From the NCBI RefSeq assembly GCF_000331025.1, contig NC_020055.1, positions 3,629,370 through 3,693,369 on the forward strand: a stretch of 64,000 nucleotides of DNA, in the 5' to 3' direction. The DNA comes from Maridesulfovibrio hydrothermalis AM13 = DSM 14728. Lineage in GTDB: Bacteria; Desulfobacterota; Desulfovibrionia; Desulfovibrionales; Desulfovibrionaceae. Below, piece by piece: positions 6,111-60,994 of the stretch (its first letter is position 1; each line of letters opens with the position of its first letter). The notes below the pieces were generated by a model, which saw nothing but the letters and a program-made list of their open reading frames with translations, had not been told where the DNA came from and ran no database searches. The position numbers were made by a program, and so were the translations under genes.

Positions 6111-8573
6111 TCAAACGGGATAGTTACCGCCTTTTTTGATGAATTCAATAATTTCAGGGGCAGGAAGCGGCTTACATTTAAGAAATCCCTGATACAGATC
6201 ACATTTTCTGTCCCGAATTACCTTGAGATCATCTACTTTCTCCACCCCTTCAGCCACAATTCTCATTCCAAGGGACTGCCCCATAGACAGTATACTTTGA
6301 AATATCTTACTGCTTCTATTCCGGCTATGAACCTTGAAAATAAAGGTTTTGTCGATCTTCATATAATCAAAAGGCAAAGTCAGTACATGAGTCAGGCTGG
6401 AATAACCTGTCCCGAAATCATCCAAAGCAAGACCTACTCCAAGCTCCTTAAGTTTTTCAATATTACTTTTCGCAATATCATATTCGCTAATCAACGCAGA
6501 CTCGGTAAGCTCCAAAGTAACGCGTTCAGGATCAAGTGAATGCTTAATTAGTTTTTCATTAACGCTGGCAGCAAAAGTGCTGTTGGTTATCTGATATGCA
6601 GAAACATTAATATTGAGCCGTATAGTCCTTCCAGTCTCCAGCTCAACCTGTTTCAGAAAAGCAACCCCTTCATCAAATACAAAATCAAAAATAGAACAGA
6701 TCAGCCCTGCATCTTCCGCCACGGGAATGAAATCGTCGGGTGCAATCTCCCCATGATCGGGATGTATCCATCTGGCCAATGCTTCCACGGATTCAGTTTC
6801 ATCGCTATTTACACTTAAAATCGGCTGATAAAAAACCTGTAAAGAGCCGTTGCTAAGCGCTTTTCGCAACCCTGTTTCAATATGAAAGACCTCAGGGGTC
6901 GTCAAAGCACCGTCAAACTCATAATTTTTGAACTGCCCTCTTCCAAGCTTTTTAGCCTCATACATAGCCATATCAGCCTTGGCCAGAACCGCGTTGATAT
7001 CTATGCTGCTATCCGTTGAAACAAACAATCCGACGCTACAGGTGACAACAACATTCTCACCGCAAAGCCTGACAGGCTCGGCTATAACTTCTAATACTCT
7101 ATCCGCAACAATAGCAGCGGAATCAGGCCCCTCCACTTCATTAAGAAGAATTATGAACTCATCTCCGCCAAGCCGGCTCACAGTATCTTCAGCACGGGTA
7201 AGTCTTTTAAGACGGGCAGAAATCTCAATGAGAAGCTTATCACCGGCATTATGTCCCAAGGTATCATTTATAAACTTAAACCTGTCCAAATCTATAAAAA
7301 GCACCGCATAAGGACGCTGCGGGTCACGTTCAAATCTGGCAATAGCGACCTTAAGCCTGTTGATAAGCGCATGTCTGTTGGCAAGTCCGGTCAAGTTATC
7401 ATGAAGAGCTTTGAAAGTTAGTTCATCCTCCAGCTTCTTACGTTCAGTAATATTATGAAGGATAAAAACCTTGTATAACGCCTCATTATTTTTAATCTTT
7501 GATGAGCTGACCAGAACATGACGTTCGCTTCCGTCTTTGGGCACAATTTTAAGTTCTAGACCATGTTCTTTATGATTCGTATTTTTTTCGTATTTAAAAT
7601 TCCGATAGGATTCTTCATCAATATAATCATAAATGCTTCTGCCCACCGCTTCCGTCATGCTGGAATCCAAAAGTATTTCCGCAGCATTATTAATGATAAC
7701 TATATTATCATTTTCATCGGTAACAATGACCCCGTCACGCATCCCGTACAAAATACCGTTAAAGAAATCTCTTGAAATAGTAGTATTTTTAAGCTCTCTG
7801 GCCATGCTGAGCATCGACCTGCCAAGCGATCCTATTTCGTCACGCCGCTCAATCGGCAAAGACAGCTGGAAATCACCGCGACCGACTTTGCTCATAGCAT
7901 CCGATAAACTTTTAAGCGGCTCAGAAAGACGGCATGCAGTCCAATAGGCAAGAAAAGCCGCGCCGATAAGCAGAAAAATAACTACACCTAATCCGGCACG
8001 AAACAACATTTCATACGAATTTCTTTCAACTTTATGCAGCTCTTCATCAAGATTGCTTATTGCCCTTTCAATACGATCAGAGGTCATGACAATGCAGACT
8101 CCGCCCAAAAGCTCCCCATCGTACTGAACCGGGCTGGTGGTTATAATCAGTCCGGATTCCTGATTAATTACACTGGTATGCGAAAACATATCATCTAAAG
8201 GAATAATAGAGACAATCGGTTCATTATAATTTTCCATAGAATATGTTCCGTCACTGAGGATATTTCCGTCACTGCTGTAAACATAAACATCCTGCACAAA
8301 ATCAATACTTTTAAGAGCATTAGTCAATGAAGAGAACAAGTGACGGTCATGTACCAAAAAAGGATCAATCATGGCATCGGCGAGCACTGCGGCAAGCGAC
8401 TCCCCTTCTTTAATAAAATTATAAACCAGAGTTGATTCCATTGATTCTCTGGATGCTTCACCAATACGCGTAAACGAATGGCCCACATGAAAAAAAAGCG
8501 TGCCCGCCAGACTGACCACAGTCAGAATGATAAGCAGCAGAATTATACTGAAATATCTGTAAACAAGTTTCAT
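6111..8573 (-). CDS. Membrane GGDEF-EAL protein with periplasmic sensor, HAMP and PAS domains
   Basis: 820 residues. Order: membrane helix 1 (9-31), periplasmic sensor (about 32-190, Cache-like), helix 2 (about 193-213), HAMP (214-268), PAS (275-385), GGDEF (395-550) and EAL (560-815). The cyclase has intact RLGGDEF and an inhibitory I-site (RAED) five residues before it. The phosphodiesterase part keeps EAL (VEALARW), LELTE, DDFGTG and AEGVE, so both activities could be present. It would make or degrade cyclic di-GMP in response to a periplasmic signal. It starts five bases after the stop of the PhnD-like binding-protein gene, so the two are very likely co-transcribed and possibly cooperate in sensing. 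Confidence 0.92.
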   Translation of the reverse strand: MKLVYRYFSIILLLIILTVVSLAGTLFFHVGHSFTRIGEASRESMESTLVYNFIKEGESLAAVLADAMIDPFLVHDRHLFSSLTNALKSIDFVQDVYVYSSDGNILSDGTYSMENYNEPIVSIIPLDDMFSHTSVINQESGLIITTSPVQYDGELLGGVCIVMTSDRIERAISNLDEELHKVERNSYEMLFRAGLGVVIFLLIGAAFLAYWTACRLSEPLKSLSDAMSKVGRGDFQLSLPIERRDEIGSLGRSMLSMARELKNTTISRDFFNGILYGMRDGVIVTDENDNIVIINNAAEILLDSSMTEAVGRSIYDYIDEESYRNFKYEKNTNHKEHGLELKIVPKDGSERHVLVSSSKIKNNEALYKVFILHNITERKKLEDELTFKALHDNLTGLANRHALINRLKVAIARFERDPQRPYAVLFIDLDRFKFINDTLGHNAGDKLLIEISARLKRLTRAEDTVSRLGGDEFIILLNEVEGPDSAAIVADRVLEVIAEPVRLCGENVVVTCSVGLFVSTDSSIDINAVLAKADMAMYEAKKLGRGQFKNYEFDGALTTPEVFHIETGLRKALSNGSLQVFYQPILSVNSDETESVEALARWIHPDHGEIAPDDFIPVAEDAGLICSIFDFVFDEGVAFLKQVELETGRTIRLNINVSAYQITNSTFAASVNEKLIKHSLDPERVTLELTESALISEYDIAKSNIEKLKELGVGLALDDFGTGYSSLTHVLTLPFDYMKIDKTFIFKVHSRNRSSKIFQSILSMGQSLGMRIVAEGVEKVDDLKVIRDRKCDLYQGFLKCKPLPAPEIIEFIKKGGNYPV

Positions 8574-8578
8574 TGGGC

Positions 8579-9514
8579 TTAATTCCCGGAAAGGTATCGC
8601 ATTCTATTAATTATCTCATCAGTGGACTTGTCTATTCGAATATATCCCGTAGCACCGCGATAACCGGACACGGCTTTGCGACCTTGTTCCGTTTGATCAA
8701 CAGTAAGCAGAATTTCCACAAGAGAAGCTCTGACCTCTGTACTGAGATGTCTCCCGACGAGAAGTATTGATCTGGGCACTTCTTCGGTCCTGCCGATAAT
8801 AGCCAAGTCCTTTTTCATCTTGGAGGGAACCCTTTTTTCATTGTTCCAATCTTTCATCCCAAGGCAACCTATATCTGCATATCCATTGAAAACCCAGGTA
8901 ACCAGCTTAAGCTCATCCTCAGCAAATCCATAGCCGAGTAAGTCATTTGGAACATTCGGTTTACCGCGTAAAGGAGCTTCCATTTCCTCCAGCTTATATC
9001 CTTTGCTTAAAAAAAGGTTACGGGGCAAAAAATAACCACTGGTGGACCCGGCATCCTCGAAGGCAATATACGCCCCCTCAAGCCCTTCTAAATTCTTAAT
9101 ACTACTATCTTTGCGGGCAAAAAGGATACCGAAATAAGTTAACATCCCATCCCGTTTTTCAATCAGCAACGGAACAGCCCCGCCATCGTTCATAAAAATT
9201 GATGCCCCGTAAATGGTTTCAGAAGCAATATCCAGTTCTCCTTTTTTAAACAACTCTGCCATTTCAGCATTATTTTTGGCAAAAACAACCTCCAGCTGTG
9301 TATACCCATGCTGCTTTAACCTGCTGACAAGGAAATTACCCATCAACTTCATGGGGATATAATCTTTACGGGGAGAATTAGAAACCCTTCCGATATATAA
9401 AGTACGCCCCGGCGCAGCAATATTGCTCCCGGCAAAAACAGGGACAGCTGTTGAGACAAAAAAAGATCCAGCTAACAAGCTGAGCATAAAAATCAAACTG
9501 GAAAAATATTTCAT
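8579..9514 (-). CDS. PhnD-like phosphate/phosphonate-type periplasmic binding protein
   Basis: 311 residues from the ATG at 9514, which is preceded by GGGTGG and begins a clear signal peptide (hydrophobic core near residues 4-22, cleavage near VFA). The body matches PhnD/HtxB-type PBP2 proteins: ELDIASETIYGAS, IAFEDAGSTSGYFLPR and the late GYRGATGYIRID region. A slightly longer frame begins at 9544 but lacks a signal-peptide start. No phosphonate permease or ATPase gene is nearby. The next gene is a GGDEF-EAL protein five bases downstream, pointing to a role as a ligand-binding partner of that sensor rather than a transporter component. The ligand is unknown. Confidence 0.85.
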   Translation of the reverse strand: MKYFSSLIFMLSLLAGSFFVSTAVPVFAGSNIAAPGRTLYIGRVSNSPRKDYIPMKLMGNFLVSRLKQHGYTQLEVVFAKNNAEMAELFKKGELDIASETIYGASIFMNDGGAVPLLIEKRDGMLTYFGILFARKDSSIKNLEGLEGAYIAFEDAGSTSGYFLPRNLFLSKGYKLEEMEAPLRGKPNVPNDLLGYGFAEDELKLVTWVFNGYADIGCLGMKDWNNEKRVPSKMKKDLAIIGRTEEVPRSILLVGRHLSTEVRASLVEILLTVDQTEQGRKAVSGYRGATGYIRIDKSTDEIINRMRYLSGN

Positions 9515-55802: not shown

Positions 55803-55843
55803 ATTACGCACCATAATCAGCAATTATGGTGCGTAATTTTTAT
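55803..55843. terminator. Long perfect hairpin at the end of the ABC/double-cubane operon
   Basis: A 15-bp perfect stem (ATTACGCACCATAAT with its complement) with a five-base loop, 15 bases after the last gene of the minus-strand operon. T run only on the plus strand (ATTTTTAT), so it may be a transcript-end stabiliser. Confidence 0.55.
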
Positions 55844-55852
55844 ACAATGTAA

Positions 55853-56308
55853 CTATTTTTTTTCAACCATCAATTCTCGATCTGTGAGAATAACGGCAAC
55901 TCCGTCTTTATTCCAGTGAAGTTCACCGTCAATCTTTTTACCGGCAGCCCCCATTGATTTCTCAACAGAAGCCTGTACTTTTTTCATGTATTGAGGTTTG
56001 AAAACAAGATCATAGCCATAAAAGAACGAATCATTAAAGCGTAGAAAAATAGACAGCAACGGAACTTCATCAAAATGCATGTCTAAATTTGTTCTTTCTC
56101 CGGTCAGGAAAATAGCCGAAGAACCTTTTTTATAGATATTTTTTAATGTCTTTTTTGAAAGATCAAGGTCCGGCAGATCTTTTTTAGCCGTATTCCATTG
56201 AATCCCTCGAAATCCGTCCAGAAAACCAGAATCACAATAGCCGATGGATGCAGATGACAACGTCGCAACGGTGACAAAACAGATAAGAAGAATTTTAATA
56301 CTCTTCAT
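55853..56308 (-). CDS. Secreted protein of unknown function, last gene of the operon
   Basis: 151 residues from the ATG at 56308 with a clear signal peptide (IKILLICFVTVATLSSASIGYC). An earlier ATG at 56341 overlaps the stop of the binding-protein gene (ATGATG) and is the alternative start, by translational coupling. The mature part (GFLDGFRGIQWNTAKKDLPDLDL, FFYGYDLVFKPQYMKKVQASVEK) has no family I know, though similar short signal-peptide proteins with a GxxWG-type beginning occur as periplasmic proteins of unknown function. Its position at the end of the operon suggests a link with the importer. Confidence 0.7.
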   Translation of the reverse strand: MKSIKILLICFVTVATLSSASIGYCDSGFLDGFRGIQWNTAKKDLPDLDLSKKTLKNIYKKGSSAIFLTGERTNLDMHFDEVPLLSIFLRFNDSFFYGYDLVFKPQYMKKVQASVEKSMGAAGKKIDGELHWNKDGVAVILTDRELMVEKK

Positions 56309-56337
56309 ATAATCAATTCTTTTTAAACAAAGGTTCA

Positions 56338-57315
56338 TCATTTGCGATACCCCTCCGGCAGATATGAATAATCTATCATGGGACTGAGATCATGTAGCTC
56401 CTTTACAAAACCGTACCCGACCATCAATTCCTGCTGCTCATTTAAACGAGCTATGGGTTCTGCCGGCTGCAATTCTCTAAGAGCGCAAATCATACATATA
56501 TCTTCTGGAACCTTGGTATATTTTGGAAGATGTTTGCGAGCTTCCATCTCGTGGTTTGTTACAAAGTCAAAAGATTTTGTTAAACCGACCAAAAACTTAC
56601 GGACAATATCCGGATGTTTTGCCAGGTAGTCATCGTTAAAATACAGACCTGTGAAAATCCAATTAGGAACGATGTCATGAAATGAGGCTAAAATCCGGCT
56701 GGCACCATGCGCTTCCAGCATGGCAGCTAAAGGGTCTCAGACAATAAATGCATCCACGCCCCCTGAGCGCAGAGCAGCTTCATGCTGCATCGGGTTGTCC
56801 GGACGACCGCCCCAGAGAGGACGAATATCTTTCATCTCATAATCACCAAGTTCGACAGCACGGCGAAGCAGTGTTTTTGCTCCGATACTGCCACTGGTGG
56901 CAATTCGTAACCCTTTTATGTCTTTAAGAGTTTTGTATTTAGTGTCTACGCCGACATGAATTCCACATTTTGTTTTGGCATGGGCATGTCCGTTCCATGA
57001 AACAATTTTTATGGGGATATCTTTTTTAGCCAGCTTGCACAGGGAAGATAAGGAAATCTCCCCCACATCGATATCTCCGCGCAGGACTCCGGCAAGGACG
57101 TTTTGCTCTCCCTTGACGTGAATCAGTTCAACATTGATTCCGGCTTCTTTAAAAAACCCCTCCTCTACGCCGACATAGAGGGCAATATTATCAATTGTTC
57201 TGCCATGAACAATCTTAATTGTCGGCAAATCATCACCGGCCAATGCCGGAAAGGCTCCTATACACAGGAGACCGATCATGCAGAGGATGGTACAGAGTTT
57301 CCTCTCAACGCTCAT
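56338..57315 (-). pseudogene. Nitrate/sulfonate/taurine-type ABC binding protein with in-frame TGA
   Basis: Codons from an ATG at 57315 (AGAGAGG upstream) give a signal peptide and an SsuA/TauA/ThiY-like PBP2 (TIKIVHGRTIDNIALYVGVEEGFFKEAGINVELI). At 56737-56739 the frame meets TGA in DAFIV-stop-DPLAAMLEAHGA and then stays open to 56338 with obvious family sequence (PNWIFTGLYFNDDYLAKHPDIVRKF). Relatives normally have Trp here (VWxP), so TGG to TGA by one base is the simplest explanation. Without readthrough the product stops after 192 of about 325 residues and should be inactive. Selenocysteine is less likely, as no convincing SECIS hairpin follows. A sequencing error is possible. Confidence 0.85.
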
Positions 57316-57367
57316 AAATACCTCTCTTTAAAGTTACTATACAGTCAGCAACCGGGAACTCCCCGGG

Positions 57368-58228
57368 TTAAGCTCCTCCTAAAGACGTTTCCACATGCCA
57401 GCCGAGCATCTTTCGTTCAACCAGCCGGGCAATACGATCCAGTGAAAAACCGATAATCGATAAAACCATGATTCCGGCAAAAACAAGTTCTGTATCAAAA
57501 GTTCTCTGAGCATCAATGACCATAAACCCGAGACCTGAATCACTTGAAAGCATTTCCACCCCGACCAGAGACATCATTGAAAGGGCAGTAGAAATGCGCA
57601 GTCCGGTCATAATTGTCGGTAAAGCGGCAGGAATCAGGACATGAATCCAAAGCTGAATCTTATTTGCCCCGAGAGATCTTGCGGCGTTGATCAGTTTGGA
57701 ATCAACTCCTTTGATCCCTGCTATTGTATTAAGCGCAATAGGGAAAAAGCATGACTTGAAAATGATCATTATTTTAGAAGTTTCCCCGATACCGAACCAG
57801 AGGAAAAAAATCGGAATAAGGGCAAAAGTGGAGAGAGGTCTGAGCAACTCAATGAGAGGATCAAAGATATCTTCCAGCAACTGAGACCACGCAATAAGAA
57901 GGCCGAGACTTACCCCGACAACAGCGGCAAGGGAATATCCCACAACAGCCCGCTTCATGCTTGAGCATGCATGCCCCAAAAGAACTCCTGATTGTGTAAT
58001 CTCCCATAAAGTTTCCAAAACTTTAGTCGGGGCAGGCAAAAACCAGCTCTGAACCCAGCCCAGCCGGGCGACCAGTTCCCAGATAAGCAGAACGGCAATG
58101 GGAGAAAGTACTTTCCGGCAGTTTATTTGCGAAAAATAATCAGTAAATTTCTTAAAAAAATCTAAAAGTAAATTTACTTTTGGAGCTGTAACATTTTGAT
58201 CTATTGAACTGCTCACATTTCCATCCAT
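57368..58228 (-). CDS. ABC transporter permease (SsuC/TauC/NrtB-type)
   Basis: 286 residues with about six helices, BPD_transp_1 fold. The EAA-like loop reads LINAARSLGANKIQLWIHVLIPAALPTIMTGLRIS. It would form the membrane channel for sulfonate, nitrate, taurine or thiamine-precursor-like compounds. The start overlaps the ATPase gene by 16 bases. The predicted cargo depends on the binding protein, whose gene carries a stop codon. Confidence 0.92.
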   Translation of the reverse strand: MDGNVSSSIDQNVTAPKVNLLLDFFKKFTDYFSQINCRKVLSPIAVLLIWELVARLGWVQSWFLPAPTKVLETLWEITQSGVLLGHACSSMKRAVVGYSLAAVVGVSLGLLIAWSQLLEDIFDPLIELLRPLSTFALIPIFFLWFGIGETSKIMIIFKSCFFPIALNTIAGIKGVDSKLINAARSLGANKIQLWIHVLIPAALPTIMTGLRISTALSMMSLVGVEMLSSDSGLGFMVIDAQRTFDTELVFAGIMVLSIIGFSLDRIARLVERKMLGWHVETSLGGA

Positions 58229-59007
58229 ACCAGCTCCCTAAGTTTTTTTTCATATTCACGGAATTTTTCCGAACCAGTAACTTCTCTGACTCTGGGTCTC
58301 GGCAGATCAATGGAAAGCGACGCTTTAATGGTTCCGGGCCTTTTGCTCATAACGACAACTCTGTCAGCCAGATATACAGCTTCAACAATACTGTGGGTAA
58401 CAAACAGAACAGTGCAGGTTGTTTCATGCCAAATGCGTAATAATTCAACCTGCATTGTTTCACGAGTTAAGGCATCAAGTGCCCCGAAAGGTTCATCCAT
58501 GAGCAACACTTTGGGATCATTAGCCAAAGCTCTGGCAATAGCGACTCGCTGCTTCATTCCTCCGGAAAGTTCATGCGGATAGCAATCCTTGAATTTCTCC
58601 AATCCGACCAGTTCTATAAAATGAGCTGTACGGCTTTCAATCTCCTCTTTATCAACACCTTGCAGATTGGGGCCGAATGCAATATTTTCCCGTACAGTTT
58701 TCCATGGAAAAAGAAGGTATTCCTGAAAAACCACTCCGCAACGGCTGTCCGGACCGACAACAGGATCTCCTTCCAGCAAAAGCTCTCCGCCGGAAGTTTC
58801 AACCAGCCCTGCCACCATCATCAGAAAAGTTGATTTGCCGCATCCTGAAGAACCGAGAATCGCAACAAACTCTTTTGGAGCCACGTCCAGATCCACTCCG
58901 GCAACGGCGTGAACAGACTCTCCCTTCCTGCCGGAATATATTTTAGAGACTCCTCTGGCCTGAATTATAGCCTTAGAATTTTCAGGAGGATGTTTTTCTA
59001 GATTCAT
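58213..59007 (-). CDS. ABC transporter ATP-binding protein (SsuB/TauB/NrtD-type)
   Basis: 264 residues from the ATG at 59007, preceded by GGCGG; the open frame extends 43 codons upstream into the double-cubane gene but that part is not family-like. Walker A GSSGCGKST, signature LSGGMKQRV, Walker B VLLMDEPFGALD and the switch His (FVTHS) are complete. The gene overlaps the end of the upstream gene by 26 bases and the permease start by 16, so the operon is tightly coupled. Confidence 0.93.
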   Translation of the reverse strand: MNLEKHPPENSKAIIQARGVSKIYSGRKGESVHAVAGVDLDVAPKEFVAILGSSGCGKSTFLMMVAGLVETSGGELLLEGDPVVGPDSRCGVVFQEYLLFPWKTVRENIAFGPNLQGVDKEEIESRTAHFIELVGLEKFKDCYPHELSGGMKQRVAIARALANDPKVLLMDEPFGALDALTRETMQVELLRIWHETTCTVLFVTHSIVEAVYLADRVVVMSKRPGTIKASLSIDLPRPRVREVTGSEKFREYEKKLRELVWMEM

Positions 59008-60184
59008 AACTAACCGCCTTTTCAGCTCTGACCTTGGAAGTCTTAATCTGCTCCATGAATCCTTCAATCCGCACTTTGAGCTGCCCTTCATCCTGAGATG
59101 AATAATCGGTAGTAACATGCAGGAAAGGCAATCCAAGTTTATCTTTAATCAGTTCTCTGACCCGATAGGATTCAATTTCAAAAGGCTGGCAGAACTGCCA
59201 TGCCAGATCAATGACGCCGTCGATATCAAATTCAGCGCACAAGCGTTCCAAATCTTCAAAACGCTGAGTGTTCGGTGTCATACAGGCGCATGTAACCCGT
59301 AAATACCTTTGTGCGATAGCCTCAAGCGGCGGAAGTGTTTCATCGACAAGATCTTCAATACGGGTAACTCCGCCGCACCCTTCAGAACAGACGACCATCC
59401 CGCCGGATTCCTCCACCAGCCGGAGCACCTTGCTGCACCCGAGACTGTTTCCAAGACCGGTCCAGAGAATGCGGGGTTTTCCTGCATCACAGGCGTGGAT
59501 GTTATTCTTATTTCGTTCTTCCAGTTCGTCTGCGAACGCTGAGAGCAGGTTCAGATAATCACTGTGGTCAATGTAATAATTAAGCTTTGAAGTTATGTTG
59601 GCAAAATCAAGCCCTGTAATAGGAGGCGGTGACTGTTTTCTTGAATAATGAATGCGGGTCATCAGCTTGCGCTGCTTATTTTTCATACGAATTGCGCGCG
59701 ATAAATCTTTATCAGTTATGGTAACTCCAAGCTGCTCTTCAAGAAATAATTTTGCGCTTTCAACTTCAGCCAGCCAGTGGGGGAGAGCCGCGGGTTCTTC
59801 CGGCTTTTGAGGCAGATCCATAACCTGCATGGGGACATAACGTTCCAGCAGTTCATACATTTTTTTGCGCCCGTCACAGGTCGTTTCTGAAATAATGCAA
59901 TCAGCCAAAGGAAAGAGAGGACATGTGCCTCCGGTAGCCCTGCCGAATGTGGCCTTTACCTTGGGACATTGATCAGGAGAAAGGATTTCCTCTGCCTTGG
60001 CAATCGGCTCATGTGTCGAGCCGCATAAACCGACAGGGATTGCGTTCGCGGCAAGTATCAGCTCGATCGGGCTGTATGAACACAGGCATCCCACTACTTT
60101 TTTACCTTCGTCTTTCGCCATTTCAAGCTGCAAAGCGAGATTTGTATGAACATCCTGTATGGATTCAGTTACATCAAATTCCAT
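58982..60184 (-). CDS. 2-hydroxyacyl-CoA dehydratase/double-cubane cluster (HgdB-like) protein
   Basis: 400 residues, start with GAGGGTG upstream. The protein belongs to the HgdB/BcrC/FldB superfamily; Cys are numerous and placed in blocks: CLCSYSP (33, 35), GLCGS (54), CPKVKAT (73), TCPLFPLADC (88, 96), TTCDG (103), then GCSKVL, VVCSEGCGG and VTCACMTPN. It stands alone, without the second dehydratase subunit and without CoA-transferase, and has a one-gene activator upstream. That arrangement fits the double-cubane cluster proteins, which reduce small molecules by ATP-driven electron transfer, better than a true hydroxyacyl-CoA dehydratase. The substrate is unknown; the adjacent ABC importer may supply it. 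Confidence 0.82.
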   Translation of the reverse strand: MEFDVTESIQDVHTNLALQLEMAKDEGKKVVGCLCSYSPIELILAANAIPVGLCGSTHEPIAKAEEILSPDQCPKVKATFGRATGGTCPLFPLADCIISETTCDGRKKMYELLERYVPMQVMDLPQKPEEPAALPHWLAEVESAKLFLEEQLGVTITDKDLSRAIRMKNKQRKLMTRIHYSRKQSPPPITGLDFANITSKLNYYIDHSDYLNLLSAFADELEERNKNNIHACDAGKPRILWTGLGNSLGCSKVLRLVEESGGMVVCSEGCGGVTRIEDLVDETLPPLEAIAQRYLRVTCACMTPNTQRFEDLERLCAEFDIDGVIDLAWQFCQPFEIESYRVRELIKDKLGLPFLHVTTDYSSQDEGQLKVRIEGFMEQIKTSKVRAEKAVSYESRKTSS

Positions 60185-60223
60185 GACACCCTCTCGATAT
60201 TAATTAAAATGAATACGTTAATT

Positions 60224-60994
60224 TTAAACAGAACGTTGTGCGACAACGGCCGCGCCCAAAGCACCAATCATTTGCGGATCAACTGAAAGGGGGACAAAGG
60301 TTATATCGAGATACTCACAAATAAGCCTTTCCAAATCTTTGTTTTTTGCCACTCCGCCGACAAAGGCCACCTGTTTCTTTACTCCGACACGTTTCGCCAT
60401 CGCTCCAACTCTGCGGGCAAAAGCTCCATGAAGTCCTGCTGCAATGTTTGAAGGTTTCTGCCCCGAGGCGAGCAGGGAAATCACTTCGGATTCAGCAAAG
60501 ACAGCACACATACTGGTAACTTCACATGGGCAGTCGGCTTTACCGGCCGTGGCACTGAGTCTGTTAAGATCAATCTCAAGAGCTTTTGCAGCCACTTCCA
60601 TAAATCTTCCTGTTCCCGCTGCGCATTTATCATTCATTATGAAGTCAAGCATATTGCCCTCATCATCAAGGCAGATAACTTTGCTGTCCTGACCACCGAT
60701 ATCAATGACTGTTCGAATATCCTCATTTAAGAAATGTGCACCGGCGGCGTGGCATGACAGCTCTGTAAGAGTGCTATCTGCAAATGGTATTGAAACTCTT
60801 CCATATCCAGTTCCCACAATATATTTAATGTCTGATTCTGACTTTCCGCTTTGGGTTAAGAGTTCTTCAAGTACTCGTTGTCCCGTTTTTGCAGGGTTGG
60901 CGCCTGTGTCAAAAAGTGTGCTGCAAAGCATCTTATTTCCACTGAGCGCAATGCCTTTTGCTGCACGTGAGCCTATATCTATTCCAACAAACAC
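60224..60994 (-). CDS. BadF/BadG/HgdC-type activator ATPase, reductase partner
   Basis: 256 residues, GTG start with GAGGTGAAG upstream. The ASKHA ATPase motifs are FVGIDIGSRAAKG, IDIGGQDSK and VGGVAKN. The single [4Fe-4S] cluster bridging two subunits is held by Cys in NDKCAAGTGRF and VTSMCAVF. Such activators (archerases) use ATP hydrolysis to push one electron from ferredoxin or flavodoxin to the partner protein at very low potential. It is the first gene of the six-gene operon. The partner gene begins 40 bases downstream. Confidence 0.93.
   Translation of the reverse strand: MFVGIDIGSRAAKGIALSGNKMLCSTLFDTGANPAKTGQRVLEELLTQSGKSESDIKYIVGTGYGRVSIPFADSTLTELSCHAAGAHFLNEDIRTVIDIGGQDSKVICLDDEGNMLDFIMNDKCAAGTGRFMEVAAKALEIDLNRLSATAGKADCPCEVTSMCAVFAESEVISLLASGQKPSNIAAGLHGAFARRVGAMAKRVGVKKQVAFVGGVAKNKDLERLICEYLDITFVPLSVDPQMIGALGAAVVAQRSV

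Follow-up and report, generated by a model that had tools for sequence, protein, structure and literature searches.

What compound could call for an ABC importer and an ATP-driven reductase of the double-cubane type in one operon? The question is raised by six genes of Maridesulfovibrio hydrothermalis AM13 = DSM 14728, all on the minus strand (60994 down to 55853 of a stretch of 64,000 nucleotides, the window; NC_020055.1, positions 3,629,370 to 3,693,369). The source genome is 3.7 Mb in size, in two contigs. The binding protein of the importer is almost certainly a selenoprotein, with selenocysteine (Sec) predicted at residue 193 from the sequence. The operon is tentatively read as a Sec-armed importer feeding an ATP-driven double-cubane reductase, with a selenium compound as the most likely cargo (rough probability 0.45).

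The operon and the in-frame TGA of its binding protein

Six genes on one strand, with short gaps or overlaps, had been described in the initial annotation. Their order and coordinates are confirmed (39 and 52 bases separate two of the neighbouring pairs, and the other three overlap by 26, 16 and 4 bases), and NCBIfam and Pfam concur with the families then assigned; the last protein has no family. The genes, and the elements inside the binding-protein gene, are as follows.

60224..60994, minus strand: activator ATPase of the HgdC/BcrAD type (TIGR00241, 258 bits, cut-off 125.4; PF01869), predicted ATP-driven electron donor to the double-cubane protein
58982..60184, minus strand: double-cubane-cluster-type reductase, a lone HGD-D (HgdB-like) protein (NF040772, 457 bits, cut-off 350)
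58213..59007, minus strand: ABC ATPase of the nitrate/taurine/sulfonate importer kind (SaoA 248 bits, cut-off 360; taurine 234 bits, cut-off 357)
57368..58228, minus strand: ABC permease of the nitrate/taurine kind (TauC 195 bits, cut-off 342; SaoP 181 bits, cut-off 295; PF00528)
56338..57315, minus strand: SsuA-like periplasmic binding protein, predicted selenocysteine at residue 193, motif U-D-P
56737..56739, minus strand: in-frame UGA, predicted selenocysteine codon of the binding protein (conserved TGA; tRNA-Sec and SelB in the genome)
56704..56724, minus strand: SECIS-like (selenocysteine insertion sequence) hairpin inside the binding-protein coding sequence (CCAUGC, 7-base loop, GCAUGG, plus one outer pair)
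55853..56341, minus strand: small secreted protein of no family, conserved in loci L003, L004 and L005 (72, 44 and 44% identity)

The start of the ABC ATPase is placed at the ATG at 59007; among the matches listed for this protein, none of 25 NCBIfam rows is at or above its own cut-off.

The binding-protein gene consists of 192 and 132 codons around the TGA at 56737-56739. The TGA is codon 193, in the context VDAFIV-U-DPLAAMLEAHGASR. A binding protein of the SsuA-like kind is present, as the initial annotation held; the in-frame TGA of its gene had been overlooked. Every related locus with this gene in the first scan has TGA at codon 193 (5/5). Surveys for the Sec binding protein, with an alignment of these relatives as the query, are confined to one phylum plus the genomes behind the first loci. 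Among phylum genomes 5 of 395 have a match, and among family genomes 2 of 199; another class has 4 in 85, plus one fragment, and of the 7 genomes behind the first loci 6 have one. The surveys overlap and together give 12 genomes under two phylum labels, all with TGA at the same codon (12/12). The family sample has 15 further genomes of the same genus, and all of them lack the Sec binding protein; the operon is therefore patchy and perhaps mobile. A fragment of the gene, TGA included, lies at L036:8658-8948, about 49 kb from the complete copy (genome G132).

The part after the TGA is under purifying selection (dN/dS 0.08 after the TGA versus 0.10 before it, window against L003). From the T of the UGA to the start of the SECIS-like hairpin the distance is 15 bases. 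All six inner pairs are the same in 12/12 genomes, which leaves no variation from which covariation could be read, and the outer pair is formed in 11/12. Within the hairpin arms, pairs of codons for the same residue have identical wobble bases in 31/31 cases at codon +5, 55/66 at +7 and 66/66 at +10. Wobble identity of most other codons shown is 0.17 to 0.6; the exceptions are -6, -5, +1 and +22 (0.65 to 0.82) and +9 (4/4). Stems comparable to this one are also found after 566 of 3669 other codons in these genes, and the free energy of the hairpin is no better than that of shuffles (z -0.26). Because this energy is unremarkable, the case for a SECIS rests on conservation. The source genome encodes a tRNA-Sec with anticodon UCA (83 bits, gathering threshold 47) and SelB (390 bits, cut-off 242). 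Conserved TGA, hairpin, purifying selection past the TGA and the tRNA-Sec with SelB together make the assignment as a selenoprotein almost certain. A pseudogene or frameshift as the cause of the split is ruled out by the conserved TGA, the frozen wobble sites and the purifying selection.

The reductase, its activator and the conserved module

The family score, the lone subunit and the adjacent activator bear out the initial view that the HGD-D protein is of the double-cubane type rather than a hydroxyacyl-CoA dehydratase. The closest solved structures are 7yyl (E 4e-80) and 6eno (E 1e-79), double-cubane proteins which we take to be from Carboxydothermus. Residues C35, C54, C73, C88, C103, C270, C299 and C332 align with cysteines of 7yyl, and the shared cysteines are present in 34/34 rows of the reductase tree at seven columns and in 33/33 at one. 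Scores against dehydratase families are far below the cut-offs (HadC 84 bits, cut-off 700; BzdN 89 bits, cut-off 454). Proteins of the double-cubane type carry out reductions at very low potential, and the known one reportedly reduces acetylene, azide and hydrazine. To our knowledge no physiological role is established for them.

No second HGD-D dehydratase subunit is found in the operon and no dehydratase partner in the genome. The source genome holds only two HGD-D proteins. The second (C2:498631-500721 with its own activator; L037) groups with the solved double-cubane protein. A dehydratase with its second subunit elsewhere is ruled out, the one other HGD-D protein of the genome being double-cubane-like.

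A phylogeny against both double-cubane proteins and dehydratases had been proposed with the initial annotation. The tree covers part of this: it has 34 rows, none from dehydratases, and it is by family score that the reductase falls outside the dehydratases. Omitted are the reductase fragments of three loci (L009; the second gene of L007; the first gene of L035) and L101 (the same place as L034). Eleven importer-type reductases, that of L008 included, form one clade with 100/100 support. Cys250 is present in 11/11 rows of the clade and in 0/23 other rows. The reductase thus has the NF040772 model, lone subunit, adjacent activator and eight cysteines in common with the double-cubane cluster protein of 6eno and 7yyl; it differs in its separate clade, in the extra Cys250 and in being joined to an importer. 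In a profile search of 390 genomes the four complete members of the clade score between 680 and 760 bits and the protein that comes next scores 442; a reductase fragment at a contig end has 314 bits. The nearest relative in the scan is L003, from a Pseudodesulfovibrio draft genome (reductase 88% identical).

The activator adjoins the reductase, or is one gene away, in 9/12 genomes with the Sec binding protein. Between activator and reductase a protein of 171-181 residues, RelE-like by eye, is encoded at L031:13033-13548 and L035:5844-6389; no family is found for the L031 copy.

Reductase, ATPase, permease and Sec binding protein stand in one block in 11/11 genomes with a testable contig. Importer, double-cubane protein and activator, earlier proposed as one unit, do form a conserved one. 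Neither outcome named beforehand as refuting the initial annotation was observed: by family score the protein is not placed among true dehydratases, and the neighbourhood is conserved. The order of the operon is found again in other genera; because it recurs there, it is not due to chance. In L034 (genome G463) the same importer is accompanied by a different reductase (42% identical) in another gene order; the pairing therefore arose at least twice.

Six relatives have in addition a TonB-dependent receptor that is read through a TGA, with the motif PGC-U (a vicinal Cys-Sec, or CU, pair) in all six aligned. The receptor gene follows directly after that of the Sec binding protein in L006, L007, L030, L032 and L033, and lies about 11 kb away in G132. 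Of 390 phylum genomes, 4 score above the cut-off of the model NF049946 (CU motif); these are exactly the four genomes, other than the source's own, that the 395-genome survey shows to hold the Sec binding protein; ten more of the 390 have weaker matches, and the best score is up to 1154 bits. The receptor was searched genome-wide only in this 390-genome sample; L003, L004, L005, L034 and L035 are judged from the fetched flanks. The source genome has no CU-type receptor. In the window, L003, L004 and L005 the small secreted protein stands instead of the TonB receptor, none of which is seen in that branch. Genes for TonB, ExbB or ExbD are near the operon in L006, L031, L033 and L035.

Selenium-gene neighbourhoods and known systems

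In this phylum, among the matches listed, 21 of 81 yedF places, spread over 21 genomes, are within 5 kb of a double-cubane gene and 19 of them within 2 kb; about 0.3 would be expected. The test uses the 150 yedF places listed, out of at least that many, and the 81 are those in genomes that also hold a double-cubane gene; related genomes are counted as independent and a genome size of 3.3 Mb is assumed. YedE, YedF or Se/S carrier proteins flank 7 of the 17 other double-cubane loci fetched, which are the author's choice among about 139 lower-scoring places, and 3 of 13 importer-type loci. Next to importer-type operons are yedF (L004) and yedE, a YedF-like TusA domain and a Se/S carrier (L009, L032). 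A double-cubane homologue adjoins selB in L088.

The literature leans the same way. The text of the preprint of Kountz and Balskus 2023 (PMC10418091) provisionally links the double-cubane protein to selenium metabolism, and its Fig. 5 legend names DCCP, its reductase and Sao genes in selenium gene clusters. Among the STRING partners that the text of PMC5322559 names for YedF, YedE, DUF3343 and LysR_Se in Slackia are a CoA enzyme activase and a subunit of 2-hydroxyglutaryl-CoA dehydratase. YedE, YedF and DUF3343 resemble the present case as neighbours of the reductase family, and differ in that their function is also only predicted (PMC5322559, text).

The Type 1 mlp clusters of PMC10418091 are the closest case in the texts searched. 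Double-cubane protein, reductase and Sao genes tied to selenium metabolism are the likeness. As the difference, they are methyltransferase clusters, commonest in Firmicutes, and no SsuA-type Sec importer beside the reductase is described in the text; Fig. 5 itself may show Sao transporter genes near the double-cubane gene.

SAO is the selenocysteine-assisted organometallic system, named for organometals (Haft and Gwadz 2023, as cited in the text of PMC13188914, which reviews Sec transporters including SaoX, with its UxP motif, and SaoB). It belongs to the same ABC superfamily, has binding subunits predicted as selenoproteins, and its UxP motif resembles the UDP motif of the window. A double-cubane gene (NF040772, 501 bits) is also found in a genuine SAO operon, L089 (genome G255), between saoD and saoA. 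That operon scores 419 for SaoA (cut-off 360), 270 for SaoB (140), 170 for SaoD (169) and 522 for SaoE (325); for SaoP, the part that precedes an in-frame TGA scores 290 (295). The whole operon, with double-cubane gene and TGA-split permease gene, spans L089:8772-15768. The operon of the window stays below the cut-offs (SaoA 248/360, SaoP 181/295, SaoX 67/300), and no match to SaoB, SaoC, SaoD, SaoE, SaoL or SaoT is found among its proteins, the rest of the genome being outside this search. SaoX is nevertheless the nearest named Sec binding protein. The half of the binding protein after the TGA aligns from SaoX position 157.

SsuABC and TauABC differ in the subfamily score (SsuA_fam TIGR01728, 92.5 bits, cut-off 163.5), in the Sec in UDP and in the lack of a sulfonate monooxygenase gene from the operon. 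Membership of the operon in SAO or SsuA is ruled out by the scores below the cut-offs. Sec-motif TonB receptors (NF049944 to NF049947; deep-Sep, PMC12013277) are represented among the relatives by the CU type; the difference is that the source genome has none, and the text of PMC12013277 states no link to an ABC importer or reductase.

No description of an SsuA-type Sec importer with a double-cubane reductase in one operon was found in the literature texts searched, outside which are the main SAO papers and those of Jeoung and Dobbek, which could mention it. The terms double-cubane, dehydratase and YedF are absent from the available text of PMC13188914. The selenium link of the family is already provisionally published (PMC10418091, text). 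The kinds of protein are known, and what is new is the joint system.

The predicted pathway and its rivals

With Sec inserted as predicted, the SsuA-like protein would grip its ligand in the periplasm through U193 of the UDP motif. Permease and ATPase would move the ligand into the cytoplasm. The activator would spend ATP to drive low-potential electrons into the double-cubane protein, which would reduce or reductively cleave the cargo. In the relatives, the TonB-dependent receptor with vicinal Cys-Sec would bring the same cargo across the outer membrane. The cargo may be a selenium compound which the cell cannot use directly; the product would be selenide, from which selenophosphate is made. 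The preference for a selenium cargo comes from the yedF link, the signal of widest reach, and from publications that point in the same direction; the selenium genes and the SAO likeness both suggest a cargo with a liking for selenols. A possible but doubtful form of this reading is a dedicated route of selenium acquisition: a Sec outer-membrane receptor, the Sec binding protein and the ABC importer would bring in a scarce selenium compound, and the ATP-driven double-cubane reductase would release selenide from it.

The earlier interpretation, an imported small molecule reduced at very low potential, appears right in outline; the Sec of the binding protein, the Sec outer receptor and the ties to selenium and SAO had been overlooked. 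Sulfonates, nitriles and acetylene, then offered as substrates, find nothing in their favour beyond the SsuA-like fold, and the evidence favours a selenophilic substrate instead.

Several observations weigh against a selenium cargo or the proposed machinery. No Cys homologue of the binding protein and no match without TGA is found at thresholds from 1e-40 to 1e-20, so that no Cys/Sec pair of the usual kind is seen within them. No selenium-metabolism gene is recognised beside the operon in the window, the yedF of the source genome is far off (C2:2775189), and only the three of 13 fetched importer-type loci mentioned above, from two lineages, have such genes. The four places where the reductase scores above 600 bits all lack a listed yedF within 5 kb (0/4). 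The activator is not seen in the fetched DNA of L006, L032 and L030/L009, and that of L033 is spread over two reading frames. The reductase of L008 belongs to the clade, yet its genome has no Sec binding protein and the gene stands beside a siderophore/B12-type importer. The double-cubane gene inside the SAO operon L089 also belongs here.

Its most direct use is for the main rival to a selenium cargo, in which the same module handles an organometal or a soft metal or metalloid (mercury, arsenic or the like), the selenol being the metal ligand and the reductase cleaving a metal-carbon bond or reducing the metal, for detoxification or scavenging. This is rather unlikely, though L089 is joined by other points in its favour: L102 has a double-cubane/activator pair with an importer whose presumed binding protein carries a Cys-Cys motif by eye, SaoX with its UxP Sec motif (PMC13188914, text) is the nearest among named Sec binding proteins, and the vicinal Cys-Sec of the TonB receptor fits soft metals. 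Against these stand the facts that the organometal chemistry of SAO is itself only predicted and that Sao genes occur also in selenium clusters (PMC10418091, Fig. 5 legend). Mercury or arsenic families are not above cut-off in any of the 49 flanking proteins scanned, a ferredoxin-type match to HgcB in L031 is weak (29 bits, cut-off 99), and the genome-wide neighbour of double-cubane reductases is yedF. Were the cargo an organometal, the operon would represent a new way of organometal uptake and reduction. Were it a selenium compound, the tie to selenium provisionally proposed for double-cubane proteins (PMC10418091, text) would gain a concrete role and a transporter, and SAO might be read likewise, as selenium acquisition. 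A Sec importer that shares the operon turns that provisional link into a testable pathway.

Another TonB-dependent nutrient, such as a corrinoid or metallophore, is an improbable cargo; Sec would then serve redox release, not recognition. BtuC/FhuD-like importers and TonB receptors do occur near close relatives of the reductase (L008, L006), and in G331 a Sec receptor (PCPU) with a BtuC-like permease is about 11 kb from a double-cubane gene, but such importers are not in the window, and it is the SsuA-type Sec protein that shares a block with the reductase in all 11 testable genomes. Lower still in probability is a shared operon of parts that act on different things, with the reductase in general selenium delivery and an importer of unrelated cargo. 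Other double-cubane genes adjoin yedF, yedE, a Se/S carrier gene or selB, with no importer of the window type found in the fetched DNA, as would suit such a division; importers of three types (window, SAO and L102), with Sec or Cys-Cys proteins, are nonetheless joined to double-cubane genes, and the CU receptor tracks the Sec binding protein exactly in the phylum sample. That the TGA is a nonsense mutation or sequencing error, and the operon a decayed sulfonate importer beside an unrelated reductase, is almost certainly wrong. The motif at the Sec site is, we assume, often Trp-Asp-Pro in SsuA-like proteins. A change from TGG to TGA takes one base, and the hairpin energy alone is ordinary; the same TGA in 12/12 genomes of two phylum labels, the purifying selection after it, the frozen synonymous sites and the Sec machinery speak against decay.

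Some further features accompany these loci. In L102 (8990-14600) the importer is of the nitrate/taurine type and the presumed binding protein has no TGA. L008:5066-13475 holds the clade reductase, activator, TonB receptor, a radical SAM protein and the siderophore/B12-type importer. At L085:4891-19400 a Sec TonB receptor (motif PCPU) and a BtuC-like importer are encoded, about 11 kb from a double-cubane gene with activator.

No NCBIfam or Pfam family is found for the small secreted protein of the window, and its AlphaFold model is weak (pLDDT 68). Past the last gene is one more element.

55803..55837, minus strand: inverted repeat 3' of the last gene, possible transcript end (-21 kcal/mol, z = -7.8)

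The repeat starts 15 bases past the gene, has no T run and is outside the terminator list. Rfam at gathering thresholds gives 0 matches in the window, which also has no tRNA, and the promoter scan gives 4 sites, fewer than the mean of 9.7 for shuffles. In L031, NapG/NapH-like ferredoxin genes (7211-8859), a possible electron supply, come immediately after the gene of the Sec binding protein. A secreted acidic-repeat protein of 600 residues, calcium-binding by eye, is encoded at L006:14782-16587; this protein occurs with TonB/Exb genes in L006, L031, L033 and L035.

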